Source of the DNA: Acidimicrobiales bacterium
Lineage (GTDB): Bacteria; Actinomycetota; Acidimicrobiia; Acidimicrobiales; VFJN01
NCBI GenBank assembly: GCA_035316325.1
Contig: DATHJB010000050.1
Location: forward strand, 1-59,019
DNA length: 59,019 nt
Direction: 5' to 3'
In this document: piece by piece, positions 5,635 through 36,897 of the stretch
Position numbering within the stretch: position 1 is the first letter of the stretch
Layout of the letters: every line of letters starts with the position of its first letter
Program-made: the position numbers and the translations under genes
Notes under the pieces: generated by a model
Databases searched by the model: none
What the model saw: only the letters and a program-made list of their open reading frames with translations
What the model was told of the DNA's origin: nothing

Positions 5635-6639
5635 CTACAGCCGGGCGTCGGCGAGGGGGACCTTCTCCACCGTCTCGGCGTCGCGGGCCAGGCGCTCGGC
5701 CATGCGGCGCTTGCCGACGATGTCGCGGTACACCCGCTCGATCTGCTCCGCCTCCAGGCCCATCACCGCGCCCGCTTCGGCGGCCGGCACGCCCTCGTGC
5801 CAGGCCCACAGCAGCAGGTCCATCTCGTGGTACGGGAGGGCGAAGTAGAACTCCTCCTGCGTCTGCGGGAGGGAGTAGGTGTCGGTGCTGGGCAGCTGCG
5901 ACTGGATCGACTCCGGCAGCCCGAAGTGCTTCGCCAGCGCGTACACCTGGGTCTTGAAGATGTGGGCGATCGGCTTGAGGTCGGCCAGCCCGTCGCCGCC
6001 CCGCACGAAGAAGCCGAGCTCGTACTCCAGCCGGTTGGGCGTGCCGAGCACGGCGAAGTTCCGGGCCTCGGCGTGGAAGTACTCGACCAGCTTGCGGGTC
6101 CGCTGCTTCATGTTCGTGGCGGCGACCACCTCGAGGTACACGTCGGTGGGCATCCGCTTGGTCTGCAGCTCACCGTCGGGTGACGCCACCGTGAGGTTGA
6201 AGTAGCTCACCCGGTCGGTGTCGAGCAGGCCCTCGGCCAGCGTGATCTTCTGGCGCCAGTCCTCGCCGTACTCGGGGAACACCCGCCGGATCGCGGCGTC
6301 GCGACGCCGGTAGCACCCGGCCGCGGCCAGCGTCGGGGCGATGTCCTCGAACTCGTACTTGAGGCCGAGCTGGTCGCACAGCTCGCGGCCGCGGGTCGTG
6401 GAGTCGGGGTCGCTGTCGGCCTCGGGCATCAGCAGGGCGACGACGCGGTCGGGGCCCAGCGCCCGGGTGGCCAGGGCGGCGCACACCGCCGAGTCGATCC
6501 CGCCGCTCACACCGACGGCGATGCCGCGGCGCTTCAGCTCGCGGCCCACCAGGCGGGTCACGGCCGACTCGATGCTGGCGGCCAGCTCGTCGAGCTGCGC
6601 GCTGTCCAGGTCGAGCACGTCGCGCGTGAAGGTGGTCAT
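5635..6639 (-). CDS. nadE: NAD+ synthetase family protein, ammonia-dependent type
   Basis: The 334-aa protein belongs to the NadE amidotransferase family, which adenylates nicotinate adenine dinucleotide and amidates it. The PP-loop ATP site SGGIDS is at residues 45-50; 'GTPNRLEYELGFFVRGGDGLADLKPIAHIFKTQVYALA' type segments match NadE. It lacks the N-terminal CN-hydrolase glutaminase domain found in the roughly 680-aa glutamine-dependent enzymes usual in actinobacteria. Its ATG overlaps the asnB stop by 4 bp (ATGA), so the two are translationally coupled. Being last in an ACP-asnB-nadE cluster suggests a specialised amidation role as an alternative to housekeeping NAD synthesis; this is inference. 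Confidence 0.85.
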   Translation of the reverse strand: MTTFTRDVLDLDSAQLDELAASIESAVTRLVGRELKRRGIAVGVSGGIDSAVCAALATRALGPDRVVALLMPEADSDPDSTTRGRELCDQLGLKYEFEDIAPTLAAAGCYRRRDAAIRRVFPEYGEDWRQKITLAEGLLDTDRVSYFNLTVASPDGELQTKRMPTDVYLEVVAATNMKQRTRKLVEYFHAEARNFAVLGTPNRLEYELGFFVRGGDGLADLKPIAHIFKTQVYALAKHFGLPESIQSQLPSTDTYSLPQTQEEFYFALPYHEMDLLLWAWHEGVPAAEAGAVMGLEAEQIERVYRDIVGKRRMAERLARDAETVEKVPLADARL

Positions 6640-8663
6640 CGGTCTCCTCCCACGGTCGCCGCGGCCGAGGCGATCCGGTCGACCTGTACGGTCGGTTCCA
6701 CACCGTCGAGCCGGCGGCGGGCCGCCGTGGCCCGCTCCCGAAAGTCCACCAGGTACGCCTGGGCCAGGCCCTGCAACGTCAACGCGCCCACGAGCGCCAT
6801 CTCCTCTCGTTCGCCTGCCATCTGTCCCTGCCGGTCGAACGCCCTGGCGGTGAGCACCCGGGTGGCCTTGGGGTCGAGCACGCCGAGGCGCTCGACCGCG
6901 GTCTCCGACAGCAGGTCACGTACGTAGTCGGGAGCCTTGGGGCCGAACAGCGCCGTGGCCATCGGGGCCCGGTACGGCTGCTTCGGCCGGTTCCAGATCT
7001 CCTCGGGGAGCGTGCGCGACGCCAGCCGCCGCAGCGTCACCTTGTCGCGCAGGCCCGGCATCTTCAGCCGGCCCGGCAGCCGCCCGCACCAGGCGATCAT
7101 CTCGGGGTCGAGGAACGGGTACCGCACCTCGATGCCGTGCGCCATCGCCACCCGGTCGCCCTGGTAGGACAGCAGGTACGACGACATGAACGTGGCGATC
7201 TCGATCCACTGTGCCCGGGCGAGCGGCTCCCAGTCGGACCAGCCGGGGGGCATGCTCGCCGCCAGGTCGCCCTCGTCGGGCGCGACCCGCCAGTCGGGCG
7301 CCAGCATCCGCTGCGACCAGGCGGTGTTCTGCCAGCGGATCAGGTGTGAGTAGAAGGGGTTGTCGGTGGCCTCGAGGTCTCGCCCGAAGAACCGGGCCCA
7401 CATGTCGGTGCCGCGGGTGCCCTCGGCGCCGGCGATCTCGGGGTGGAGCCTGCCGGCGAGCGCCGGTCGCCACGACGACTTCGGGTCGCGGGCCCAGAAC
7501 CGCCGCAGGGCGTCCTCCTTGAACACCGAGTAGCCCGACAGGAGCTCGTCGGCGCCCTCGCCGGTGAGGACCACCTTCATCCCCGCCTCCCGGACCAGGC
7601 CCGACAGCAGGTACAGCGGCACCGGCCCGGTCCTGAGCTGGGGCGCCTCGCAGTGCCAGACGACGTCGAGCAGCGCGGCGGCGATCTCGTCGGGACCGCA
7701 CACGATCTCGTGGTGCTGCGTGCCCAGCAGCCCGGCCATGCGGCGCTGCTCGGCGGTCTCGTCGAAGGTGGGGTCGGCGAAGCGGACGGCGAACGTCTCC
7801 AGGGGTGCGTCGCCCTGGTCGACCAGCGAGGCGATCACCGACGAGTCGAGCCCACCGCTGAGGTAGGCGCCCACGGGGACGTCGGCCCGCAGCCGCAGCC
7901 GGACGGCCTCGCCCAGGCGGTCGCCGAGGAGGTCGGCGGCGTCGTCGAGGGAGAGGTCGGCGAGCGTCGGGTCGACCGTGAAGTCCGGCTGCCACCAGAC
8001 GTGCTCGACGCAGCGCAGGTTCTCGTCGACGTCGACCCGCACGGCCGTGCCGGGGCGGACCGAGCTCACGCCTGCGAACACCGTGCGGGGAGCGGCTGCC
8101 GACCAGCGGGTGAAGACCTCGCCGAGGCCGACGGCGTCGAAGCTCGGCGTCAGGTGTCCTGACGCGAACAGCGCCTTGGCCTCGGAGGCGAACAGCAGCC
8201 GACCGTCGGCGATGGCGTAGTGCAGGGGCAGGATGCCGACGCGGTCACGGGCCAGCCACAGGCGGCGCCGCCGACGGTCCCACAGGGCGACCGCGAACTG
8301 TCCGTTGAGCCGGGCCCAGGTCGCCTCGCCCCACTCCTCGTAGGCGTGGACGATGACCTCGGAGTCGCCCTGCGTGACGAAGCGGTGGCCCCGGTCGCTC
8401 AGCTCGCGGCGCAGCTCCAGGTAGTTGAAGATCTCGCCGTTGAACGTGAGCCAGACCGTGCCGTCCTCGTTGGTGAGGGGCTGGTCGCCGGTCGAGAGGT
8501 CGATGATGCTCAGACGGGCGTGGCCCAGGCCGACGTGCTCGTCGCGGTAGAAGCCGTAGCCGTCGGGGCCGCGGTGCTGCAGCAGCGCCACCATCGACCG
8601 CAGCTCGTCGAGCTCCACCGGCGCCCGCCCCGGGCCGTTCAGCACCCCTGTGATCCCGCACAT
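6636..8663 (-). CDS. asnB: Asparagine synthetase (glutamine-hydrolysing) family protein
   Basis: A 675-aa two-domain amidotransferase. The N-terminal Ntn glutaminase starts MCGITG, with Cys2 exposed after Met removal as nucleophile, and contains 'RGPDGYG' and 'FNGEIFNY'. The C-terminal synthetase domain has the PP-loop SGGLDSS at residues 269-275 and 'LTGEGADELLSGY'. Enzymes of this family make asparagine or amidate other carboxylates, including carrier-bound intermediates in secondary metabolism and exopolysaccharide clusters. Start is ATG at 8663 with GGGGCAG as ribosome site. The gene lies between an ACP gene and nadE, so a substrate carried on the ACP is plausible. The natural substrate is unproven. 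Confidence 0.9.
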   Translation of the reverse strand: MCGITGVLNGPGRAPVELDELRSMVALLQHRGPDGYGFYRDEHVGLGHARLSIIDLSTGDQPLTNEDGTVWLTFNGEIFNYLELRRELSDRGHRFVTQGDSEVIVHAYEEWGEATWARLNGQFAVALWDRRRRRLWLARDRVGILPLHYAIADGRLLFASEAKALFASGHLTPSFDAVGLGEVFTRWSAAAPRTVFAGVSSVRPGTAVRVDVDENLRCVEHVWWQPDFTVDPTLADLSLDDAADLLGDRLGEAVRLRLRADVPVGAYLSGGLDSSVIASLVDQGDAPLETFAVRFADPTFDETAEQRRMAGLLGTQHHEIVCGPDEIAAALLDVVWHCEAPQLRTGPVPLYLLSGLVREAGMKVVLTGEGADELLSGYSVFKEDALRRFWARDPKSSWRPALAGRLHPEIAGAEGTRGTDMWARFFGRDLEATDNPFYSHLIRWQNTAWSQRMLAPDWRVAPDEGDLAASMPPGWSDWEPLARAQWIEIATFMSSYLLSYQGDRVAMAHGIEVRYPFLDPEMIAWCGRLPGRLKMPGLRDKVTLRRLASRTLPEEIWNRPKQPYRAPMATALFGPKAPDYVRDLLSETAVERLGVLDPKATRVLTARAFDRQGQMAGEREEMALVGALTLQGLAQAYLVDFRERATAARRRLDGVEPTVQVDRIASAAATVGGDR

Positions 8664-8680
8664 GGGCTGCCCCGGGGTTA

Positions 8681-8841
8681 GGGCCTGTCCTGTGGATCAT
8701 GGCGCACGTCTCTCCGGCCAGATGACGCCGCTCGCCGCACCGTGCCGACATTGAAACCCTGGTGGGTTCCTGCGTCGTCCCGGCACGCCGAGCGACGCCC
8801 CTGACTCGGAGATCCGTACACCTGACCCACAGGACAGGCCC
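8681..8841. mobile_element. MITE-like non-autonomous element, 161 bp, with TA target duplication
   Basis: Two perfect 15-bp outer repeats (GGGCCTGTCCTGTGG at 8681-8695 and its complement at 8827-8841) extend inward to 19 bp with one mismatch. Each end is flanked by TA (8679-8680 and 8842-8843), consistent with a 2-bp target duplication as made by IS5/IS427-group or IS630-type transposases. The interior has no open reading frame worth naming. It lies between the ACP gene and asnB; its first base supplies the G of the ACP stop codon TAG. Confidence 0.75.
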
Positions 8842-9140
8842 TACGTGCGCTTACGGGCGACGAAGGCGGCGAGTCGCTCGACGGAGTCGAGGTTGTCGGC
8901 GACCAGCTCGTCGTCGTCGACGACGATGCCGAACGACTCCTCCAGGAACGCCACGACCTCCATCACCCCGGTCGAGTCGACGATGCCGCTGTCGAGCAGC
9001 GACACGTCGGTCGCGAAGCCGTCGTCGTCGCCGAGCAGGAAGGTGTCGACGAGGAATGCCCGCACCCGCTGTGCGATCTCGCCGGTCGTGCCGCCGGTCT
9101 GGGTTGTCGCCGTCTCGGTGGAACCCGAGATCGAGGTCAT
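8841..9140 (-). CDS. Acyl carrier protein
   Basis: A 99-aa carrier protein. After a Thr/Ser-rich N-terminus of about 20 residues it shows the carrier helix pattern, with the phosphopantetheine serine S56 in 'SGIVDSTGVMEVV', a DST variant of the usual DSL. The motif 'VVAFLEESFGIVVDDDEL' resembles stand-alone ACPs that work with AMP-forming ligases or amidotransferases more than the fatty-acid AcpP. The ATG at 9140 is preceded by GGAGGGCGG, a strong ribosome site. It is the first gene of an ACP-asnB-nadE cluster. Its stop codon TAG is formed at the junction with the MITE-like element. Confidence 0.85.
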   Translation of the reverse strand: MTSISGSTETATTQTGGTTGEIAQRVRAFLVDTFLLGDDDGFATDVSLLDSGIVDSTGVMEVVAFLEESFGIVVDDDELVADNLDSVERLAAFVARKRT

Positions 9141-18166: not shown

Positions 18167-19026
18167 ACGCAGTGACCACGTGGCGGCAGCTGCTGCGGGA
18201 GGTGACCGCCCAGCTGGCCGGCGGCGACAACGCCGACCAGGAGGCCCGCTGGATGCTCGAGCGGGCCACCGGGTTCGACGCCGGCGAGCTGCAGGTCGCC
18301 CTCGACCGGCCGGCGACCGTGCGGGGCGCCACCCACGTCAACCACATGCTGGAGCGCCGGGTGTCGGGCGAGCCGCTGCAGTACGTGCTCGGCCGCTGGG
18401 GGTTCCGCAGCCTCGACCTCTACGTCGACCGCCGGGTGCTGATCCCCCGCCCCGAGACCGAGGTGCTGGCCGAGCTGGCCCTGGCCGAGGTCGACCGGTT
18501 GGGCGCCCAGATGGCGATCGACCTGGGCACCGGCTCCGGCGCGATCGCCCTGGCCCTGGCCGTCGAGCGGCCCAAGCTCGACGTGTGGGGCACCGAGCTG
18601 TCGCCCGAGGCCCTGGCTGTCGCCCGGGCCAACCTGGCGGGGCTGGGTCGGGCCGCCGTCCGGGTGCGGCTGGCCGAGGGCGACTGGTTCCGGGCGCTGC
18701 CGACCGACCTCCGCGGCCGGGTCGACGTGATCGTGTCGAACCCGCCCTACGTCGCCCAGCACGAGGTGCCCGACCTGCCGCCCGACGTGCGGGAGTGGGA
18801 GCCGGAGCTGGCGCTGGTGTCGGGCGGGCCCGCGGGGCTCGACGACGTGGCGGCCATCGTCGCCGAGGCGCCGTCGTGGCTGACCCGGCCGGGCTCGCTG
18901 CTGGTGGAGATGGCCCCGCACCAGACCGACGCCGCCCGCGACCTGGCCCGGGCCGCCGGCTTCACGTCGGTGTCCGTCTGGCCCGACCTGACCGGCCGCG
19001 ACCGCATCCTCCAGGCCCGCCTGTGA
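18163..19026 (+). CDS. prmC: Release factor glutamine methyltransferase
   Basis: N5-methylates the GGQ glutamine of release factors using SAM. The 287-aa protein has an N-terminal helical substrate domain ending in 'GEPLQYVLG', SAM motif I 'AIDLGTGSGAIALALA' and the catalytic NPPY at 193-196. 'LIPRPETE' is also characteristic. The ATG overlaps the prfA TGA (ATGA), and the stop overlaps the GTG of tsaC, making a tight prfA-prmC-tsaC operon. Confidence 0.95.
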   Translation: MNAVTTWRQLLREVTAQLAGGDNADQEARWMLERATGFDAGELQVALDRPATVRGATHVNHMLERRVSGEPLQYVLGRWGFRSLDLYVDRRVLIPRPETEVLAELALAEVDRLGAQMAIDLGTGSGAIALALAVERPKLDVWGTELSPEALAVARANLAGLGRAAVRVRLAEGDWFRALPTDLRGRVDVIVSNPPYVAQHEVPDLPPDVREWEPELALVSGGPAGLDDVAAIVAEAPSWLTRPGSLLVEMAPHQTDAARDLARAAGFTSVSVWPDLTGRDRILQARL

Positions 19027-19625
19027 CCCTCGCCTCTGTCGACGACGCCGTGGCGGCGTTGCTGGCCGGCGAGGTGGTGGTGCTGCCCACGGAGACCGTC
19101 TACGGCCTCGCGGCGCTCCCCACTGCCACCGAGCGGATCTTCGCACTGAAGGGGCGAGGCCCCGACGTCCCGCTCGCCGTCCTCTGCGCCGACGGCGACC
19201 AGGCGCTGGCGCTCGTGGACGACCCGAGCGACGCCGTGGCCCGGGTGGCCAAGGAGCTGTGGCCCGGGCCGTTGACGCTGGTCCTGCCCCGTCGACCCGG
19301 CCTCGGCTACGAGCTGGGCGAGCCGGCGACGACGATCGGTGTCCGCTGCCCCGACCACGCGTTGGTGCAGGCGATCACCGCCCAGGTCGGACCCATCGCC
19401 GCCAGCAGCGCCAACCTCCACGGCCAACCGACGCCCGACACCGCCGCCGAGGCCGCCCGGGTGTTCGGCGACGGCGTGGCCGCGGTGGTCGAAGGGGGCC
19501 CCTGCAAGGGCGAGCCGTCGACGGTGGTCGACGCCACCGACCCCGACCCGGCCCGCTGGCGGGTCCTGCGCCAGGGGGCCCTGACGATCGACGACGTCCT
19601 GGCTACAGGTCGAGACCGCCCGTAG
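19023..19625 (+). CDS. tsaC: L-threonylcarbamoyladenylate synthase (TsaC/Sua5/YrdC family)
   Basis: Makes threonylcarbamoyl-AMP for the t6A37 modification of ANN-decoding tRNAs. The 200-aa protein consists only of the YrdC domain, with 'VVLPTETVYGLA', the KxR motif (K43, R45) in 'FALKGRG', 'WPGPLTLVL' and 'IAASSANLHGQ'. There is no C-terminal Sua5 domain, so it is the short form. GTG 19023 overlaps the prmC stop. The 3' end overlaps the convergent thiolase-like gene by 23 bp. Confidence 0.92.
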   Translation: MTLASVDDAVAALLAGEVVVLPTETVYGLAALPTATERIFALKGRGPDVPLAVLCADGDQALALVDDPSDAVARVAKELWPGPLTLVLPRRPGLGYELGEPATTIGVRCPDHALVQAITAQVGPIAASSANLHGQPTPDTAAEAARVFGDGVAAVVEGGPCKGEPSTVVDATDPDPARWRVLRQGALTIDDVLATGRDRP

Positions 19626-35904: not shown

Positions 35905-36897
35905 TCAGGCGAAGTCGATGGAGGAGAAGTTGGCGAGCTTCGCGAGGCGGTGGGTGGCGCTCACGAGGCGGACGGTGCCGGACTTCGAGCGCATGACCAG
36001 CGACTGCGTGGTGGCGCTGTCGGCGGCGTAGTGCACGCCCTTGAGCACCTCGCCGTCGGTGATGCCGGTGACGGCGAAGAAGCAGTTGTCGCCCGCCACC
36101 AGCACGTCGGTGGTGAGCACCTGCTCGAGGTCGTAGCCGGCGTCGAGGGCGGCCCGGCGCTCGCCGTCGTTGCGGGGCCACAGCCGCCCCTGGATCTCGC
36201 CGCCCATGCACTTCAGCGCCGCCGCGGCGATGACGCCCTCGGGGGTGCCGCCGATGCCGAAGAGGACGTCGGCGCCGGTGTCGGGCCAGGCGGTGGACAC
36301 GGCGCCGATCACGTCGCCGTCCTGGATCAACCGGATCCGGGCCCCGGCGGCCCGTACCTCCTCGATGAGCGGCTGGTGGCGCTCGCGGTCGAGGATCACG
36401 GCGGTGACGTCGCGCACCGACTCGCCCTTGGCCTTGGCCACCGCGTGCAGGTTCTCGGTGGGCGTCTTGGCGATGTCGACGGAACCCACGGCCTCGGGCC
36501 CGACGGCGATCTTCTCCATGTAGACGCACGGGCCGGGGTTGAACATCGTGCCCCGCTCCGACACGGCGATCACCGAGATGGCGTTGCCGCGCCCCAGCGC
36601 GGTGAGCGTGGTGCCCTCCACCGGATCGACGGCGATGTCGGTGGCCGGGCCGGTGCCTCCACCCACCTGCTCGCCGTTGAACAGCATCGGGGCCTCGTCC
36701 TTCTCGCCCTCGCCGATCACGACGATCCCGTCCATCGGCACGCTGTCGAGCACGATGCGCATCGCGTCGACGGCGGCCCCGTCGGCCCCGTTCTTGTCGC
36801 CCCGCCCCATCCAGCGTGAGGCGGCGAGCGCGGCTGCCTCCGTCACCCGGACGAGCTCGAGGGCGAGGTTCCGGTCCGGGCGCTGCTTGTCGGTCAT
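35905..36897 (-). CDS. glpX: Fructose-1,6-bisphosphatase class II
   Basis: Hydrolyses fructose-1,6-bisphosphate in gluconeogenesis. The 330-aa protein shows GlpX motifs: '[11 protein letters not shown]', '[15 protein letters not shown]', '[10 protein letters not shown]' and '[16 protein letters not shown]'. Metal ligands are in the first three. The ATG at 36897 fits the family N-terminus. It is divergent from the acidic-protein gene, with a small inverted repeat between them. Confidence 0.95.

Follow-up and report, generated by a model that had tools for sequence, protein, structure and literature searches.

A 161-bp palindromic MITE lies between the genes for acyl carrier protein (ACP) and asparagine synthase (asnB) in the 59,019-nt stretch of Acidimicrobiales DNA analysed here (the window). 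The best explanation of its features, which we hold with high confidence, is that an IS5-family transposase with a YTAR target preference moved this MITE, that its terminal G rebuilt the stop codon of the ACP gene, and that its body, with a conserved hairpin core, has been kept foldable on one strand. The element and its neighbours are laid out as follows.

8681–8841, minus strand: palindromic MITE, 161 bp; its structured strand is the sense strand of the ACP–asnB operon.
8681–8699, plus strand: terminal inverted repeat on the asnB side, GGGCCTGTCCTGTGGATCA (repeat finder and end-motif search).
8823–8841, minus strand: terminal inverted repeat on the ACP side, GGGCCTGTCCTGTGGGTCA (repeat finder and end-motif search).
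8679–8680, no strand: TA flank, presumed target-site duplication (from the sequence; IS copies likewise have TA on both flanks).
8842–8843, no strand: TA flank, which also supplies the T and A of the ACP stop (from the sequence).
8713–8811, minus strand: conserved hairpin core (covariance model R1 from another order, 32.7 bits, E 7e-6).
8841–9140, minus strand: ACP gene, 99 aa, with stop TAG at 8843–8841 (PF00550).
6636–8663, minus strand: asnB, glutamine-hydrolysing asparagine synthase, 675 aa (Pfam GATase_7 and Asn_synthase).
8667–8673, minus strand: GGGGCAG, just past the foot of the hairpin on its downstream side; possible ribosome site of asnB (by inspection).
5635–6639, minus strand: NAD synthase gene, next in the operon (Pfam).

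The element reads as TA, 161 bp (8681–8841) and TA, with 19-bp ends that carry one mismatch (18/19); including the TA, the repeat finder pairs the arms 8679–8699 and 8823–8843, 21 nt that are 95% complementary. These values confirm an earlier note, made from the letters of the window, which had described a 161-bp element with 19-bp inverted ends, one mismatch and TA on both sides. At up to three mismatches, the chance expectation for the end motif within the window is 0.00. The element is short, has inverted ends and is far too small for a transposase gene, as expected of a MITE. On the minus strand the ACP gene ends in ...CGC ACG TA|G, in which the last G is element base 8841, and this reading bears out the proposal that the first base of the element completes the ACP stop TAG and leaves the proteins unchanged. 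Beyond the element, on the asnB side, the sequence continues as TA A CCCC GGGGCAG CCC ATG. Removing the element and one TA reproduces the proposed ancestral junction of TAA, 14 nt and the asnB ATG; this TAA ancestor is a reconstruction, the ACP–asnB junction having been found in no relative.

Copies elsewhere reveal the mobile history of the hairpin. The host assembly (6.37 Mb in 244 contigs) contains four other full copies, 90–96% identical and located at unrelated genes, for a total of five; a search for such 161-bp copies had been suggested in the earlier note. One sister copy (L005) sits at the end of a gene that we take for a class II aldolase, and four relatives from other genera (G001, G002, G004 and G006) have the orthologous empty site, with the identical two neighbouring genes directly adjacent and no element between them. 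The upstream protein ends in QPDLLD in the host and in all four relatives, with TGA as the stop codon in the relatives and the element's TAG in the host. Simple reconstruction does not recover the ancestral stop codon at L005, as the base past the element gives TAC, no stop. Examination of related genomes for empty sites was successful for this sister copy and found none for the window copy. Two candidate sites for the window copy were rejected: in a family relative with an ACP gene (G003) the next gene encodes an adenylate-forming enzyme and not asnB, and Azospirillum has the order ACP–ligase–asnB, so that its junction is not orthologous. The classification as a MITE proposed from the window alone is upheld by the four further full copies, the empty site of the sister copy and transposase-coding elements with the same ends.

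The same observations bear on the idea that no insertion took place and that the hairpin arose at this position as a normal attenuator or structured leader of the operon. Its neat position between two co-directional genes is what such a leader would show, but four near-identical copies at unrelated genes refute this origin, and the empty site of the sister copy and the transposon ends common to IS elements also speak against it, leaving it a vanishingly small probability. Carriage by a phage or plasmid was likewise rejected, with no relevant match. One feature of the copies counts against the insertion model that we favour: three of the five lack TA on both flanks. TA is present on both sides of the window copy and L005, and one or both flanks are altered in L002, L003 and L004; the TA is indistinguishable from terminal element bases. 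The window copy differs from its sister copies at position 5 of the two ends, where both bases of the pair have changed, from G-C to C-G. Several solo ends, about 31 bp long at most, are also present in the host genome. Two 31-bp solo ends (L006 1501–1531 and L007 982–1012) break at about the same element position, and the L007 end lies at the stop of the upstream gene and supplies the ATG of one frame. One contig breaks off within an element end (L032; G000 C20, bases 36146–36164), which makes this a likely place for a longer or collapsed copy to be hidden.

To look for the enzyme that moved the element, we scanned 84,980 species genomes for the end sequence TAGGGCSTGTCCTGTGGATC, with about 1 match estimated by chance. 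The scan returned 33 stretches, nearly all actinobacterial, of which five are elements of 0.87–0.94 kb with both ends; three of these five have two overlapping frames with confirmed DUF4096 (PF13340) and DDE transposase (PF01609) domains. Full-length IS copies in other actinobacterial genera share the ends of the window element and have TA at both flanks. From the PF13340 and PF01609 domains and the frame layout, which is that of the IS5 family, we take these to be IS5-family, IS427-like elements. A check of the repeat ends for full-length IS copies, also suggested earlier, therefore identified transposase-coding partners with TA flanks, in genera other than that of the host. The IS427-like elements (L053, L062, L072 and L076) share the 20-bp ends TAGGGCSTGTCCTGTGGATC and the TA flanks, but carry two overlapping transposase frames, whereas the window element has none and shows no IS sequence inside beyond the ends. 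In the host genome, PF13340, PF13586 and the L072 protein are all absent from the fragmented assembly of 244 contigs; this lack of a cognate transposase or autonomous partner counts against the preferred explanation. Of 395 genomes in the class, the window's genome is the only one with the end motif, a pattern consistent with acquisition of the ends from elsewhere. We infer that an IS5-family (IS427-like) transposase moves the ends in trans and would insert them at YTAR, duplicating TA; the assignment of this transposase to the window element derives from the shared ends. A Glycomyces genome contains a 66-bp almost perfect hairpin (L057 5986–6051) that consists of the same ends and little else.

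Target preference explains the position of the element within a stop codon. In Kineosporia babensis, about 19 full-length MITEs of 163 bp (L088 and others) share the ends of the window element, are similar to it in length, have one strand more stable than the other and have frequently landed in stop codons. We reconstructed their empty sites, 18 of which were usable, and took as background the noncoding TA of nearby element-free DNA. An original stop codon supplied the TA at nine of the 18 sites, compared to 14 of 154 noncoding TA (P 1.2e-5), and 13 of 18 are YTAR compared to 17.5% of noncoding TA (P 5e-7), with genes assigned by our own codon-usage caller and no standard gene finder. Given YTAR, the extra excess at stop codons is slight (P 0.03). 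The window has 19 YTAR sites, 9 of them stop codons and 1 coding. Target choice and gene density together account for landing in stop codons. YTAR is nearly confined to stop codons and intergenic DNA in GC-rich genomes, so that such landings are common and neutral; and the G at the start of the element means that a TAA or TAG stop hit at its TA is rebuilt as TAG, and both flanking proteins survive.

The entire window element folds into one near-perfect hairpin. The surrounding 191 nt have a predicted folding energy of −140.6 kcal/mol (z-score −10.65), and this is the strongest long hairpin in the approximately 1.8 Mb of the host genome read for the hairpin survey. The suggestion that the insertion added a hairpin to the junction is upheld and extended, as the complete element is a single hairpin. 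Folded as RNA, the element is more stable on the operon strand (−132 kcal/mol) than on the other strand (−89 kcal/mol). In all five own copies the strand that is sense to the upstream gene is the more stable, by about 33–43 kcal/mol, with L004 between convergent genes. Under strand-neutral pairing, consensus pairs of three families that are not Watson–Crick comprise 28 G-U compared to 5 A-C. Within families, changes from paired states yield 17 G-U compared to 2 A-C (P 7e-4), together with nine double compensating changes. When elements from other genomes are oriented by homology alone, the same strand is more stable in 27 of 27, and G-U pairs outnumber C-A pairs in 24 of 27 (P 5e-5; the sequences are related and not independent). 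All 30 copies examined are intergenic, with 12 sense and 12 antisense to host genes. This even orientation argues against read-through mRNA as the setting in which the strand bias is maintained. We rejected transcription-associated mutation and selection on host mRNA as its source on the same ground of mixed orientation, and on the second ground that most G-U singletons in K. babensis are in copies antisense to their neighbours.

Sequence conservation is concentrated in the inner part of the hairpin. In an alignment of 27 elements (A1), the ends are near TAGTGCYCTGTCC, the core has GGCGAG-CAGGGGCGTCG, and the core segments AAGGACGCAGGACGAAGGCGCA and TGCGTCGAGGACGAGGACGC are almost invariant. 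GGAC faces GGAC twice in the predicted structure, an arrangement that suggests tandem G-A pairs. Conservation is 92–93% in the GGAC regions, 81–82% in the core stem and 69–71% in the ends. The 27 sequences contain 170 double-changed cells compared to 48.6 in shuffles, and the covariation score is 0.466 compared to 0.178 in shuffles and 0.07–0.11 in slid controls. In helix 2, which is in the core and outside the ends, 14 of 20 pairs change on both sides. Covariance model R1 matches the window at 8713–8811 on the minus strand (32.7 bits, E 7e-6) and matches all five own copies, with a best background score of 24.1 bits in 1.5 Mb of the same genome. The window copy keeps one inner GGAC only, and the GGAC/GGAC pairing of other members is lost from its central loop, which also counts against the preferred explanation; judged by this motif, it is at most a divergent member of the R1 core family.

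The same core occurs behind other ends. In the host genome, a second palindromic element type with ends AGGGCCGTGGCCATGRACGTT (L008 1466–1625; G000 C160, about 18946–19105) has the same core at 77 bits with R1; a TAA immediately precedes this element and an ATG follows it. Another genome of the same order (G123) has a member of the core family with a longer loop (L026 1381–1523, 35 bits). Part of the core is also found in G336, from another family of the class (L148 and L150), and 35 of 138 genomes in the order of G336 carry the core behind different ends. The Kineosporia MITEs, unlike the window element, have cores that R1 does not recognise. One weak local similarity links the Kineosporia and window cores (score 29, shuffle p 0.004), and with this weak match and the failure of R1 we rejected homology and treat the Kineosporia core as a separate family, likewise behind several kinds of ends. 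At L115 and L106 it stands behind at least two further end types, GGTCGTGTTTTGAAATTC and GGGCGCGTCTTGTAAGTC. Rfam at the gathering score has no match in the window or in the elements of 20 loci, with only tRNAs nearby, and we found no description of this core or these ends in openly licensed papers. A strong 246-bp inverted arrangement at L217 (6147–6392) looks like two convergent tRNA genes. Compared across these genomes, the core family appears as a structurally conserved, previously uncatalogued family.

These data bear on whether the fold has a function at all. In a plain MITE the palindrome would be a by-product of origin, the fold would do nothing, and the asymmetry would date back to a single ancestral copy. 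In favour of this view, the copies are randomly oriented to host genes, an old asymmetry could persist through family descent by itself, and transposition needs matching ends, so that outer arms covary; the covariation of the outer arms may stem from both ends matching one transposase, which also weighs against our preferred explanation. By contrast, conservation is higher in the inner core than in the ends and highest in the GGAC region of the core, which is not self-complementary. Core pairs outside the ends change on both sides (the 14 of 20 in helix 2), G-U remains preferred to C-A by 17:2 among the newer changes within families, and the same core stands behind different ends. We consider a functionless palindrome unlikely, although its probability is appreciable. 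In the preferred explanation, the inner approximately 100 nt of the 161-nt hairpin belong to a conserved core family that travels with different transposon ends. As one strand is kept foldable, G-U pairs included, the core most likely works in a folded, single-stranded form, with RNA the probable molecule.

The folded strand could alternatively work as single-stranded DNA, for example in replication or a strand-specific transposition step, as REP and attC hairpins do. Random gene orientation and a one-strand bias would fit a DNA hairpin as well, and G-T pairs are tolerated in DNA hairpins. DDE-type IS5 elements move as double-stranded DNA; the ends match such elements with TA flanks, and inspection revealed no attC-like or REP-like end motifs, which makes a DNA role fairly improbable. 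Function as RNA is what we infer for the core. A broader proposal is tentative, and we place it somewhat short of an even chance: a family of mobile hairpins would extend across the class, and its members would carry a functional single-stranded fold (probably of RNA, with GGAC motifs paired) that passes as a module from one kind of transposon end to another, with the ends as vehicle and the core as conserved cargo.

At the ACP–asnB junction, the insertion would place a very stable hairpin in the message, where it may uncouple translation of asnB from that of ACP and offer a double-stranded cleavage site. A stronger version holds that the element now regulates asnB through attenuation, RNase III processing or uncoupled translation and has been domesticated at this site. 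A hairpin of −132 kcal/mol between an operon stop codon and a ribosome site makes this conceivable, and ERIC and Correia elements affect neighbouring mRNAs (PMC2229807). Against such regulation, no terminator or promoter matches the element, the other copies are at unrelated genes, and no relative is known with the element at this site, which gives no sign of site-specific selection. Domestication is improbable on this evidence. The idea that the insertion added a promoter also lacks support: no promoter-like match was found in the element region, and no promoter-like or terminator-like site was matched at the locus.

Several known elements resemble the MITE in the window. The ERIC (IRU, RU-1) elements of enterobacteria are 127-bp long imperfect palindromes with TA flanks that are intergenic and transcribed, encode no protein and affect mRNA in an orientation-dependent manner (PMC2229807); insertions of ERIC-type elements that fuse genes or alter stop codons are also described (PMC2759123). 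The likeness drawn here is one of architecture and setting; the ends of the window element match IS5-family elements, and its core family with GGAC motifs is common to different ends. The Neisseria Correia (NEMIS) elements and the pneumococcal RUP are likewise MITEs with terminal inverted repeats, TA targets and a presumed IS partner, and RNase III has been proposed to act on the NEMIS hairpins in RNA; for RUP the link is to IS630-Spn1 and not to an IS5-family element, and stop-codon landing through YTAR is not among the features described in the available text (PMC2229807). The very long palindromic MITEs QMITE1 and QMITE2 of Coxiella produce RNA with conserved stems, and some lengthen or end genes at stop codons; they differ in host and sequence, and the accessible part of the report contains no family with exchangeable ends around one conserved core (PMC5896051).

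Together, these results point to a conserved family of hairpins, so far uncatalogued, in which the core persists longer than the transposon ends. They also provide a quantified and simple reason for stop-codon landings, as a YTAR target combined with a terminal G is protein-neutral and GC-rich coding DNA is nearly without YTAR. Whether the hairpins of bacterial MITEs are active as RNA, a long-standing question, becomes testable through a covariance model and dozens of natural copies.
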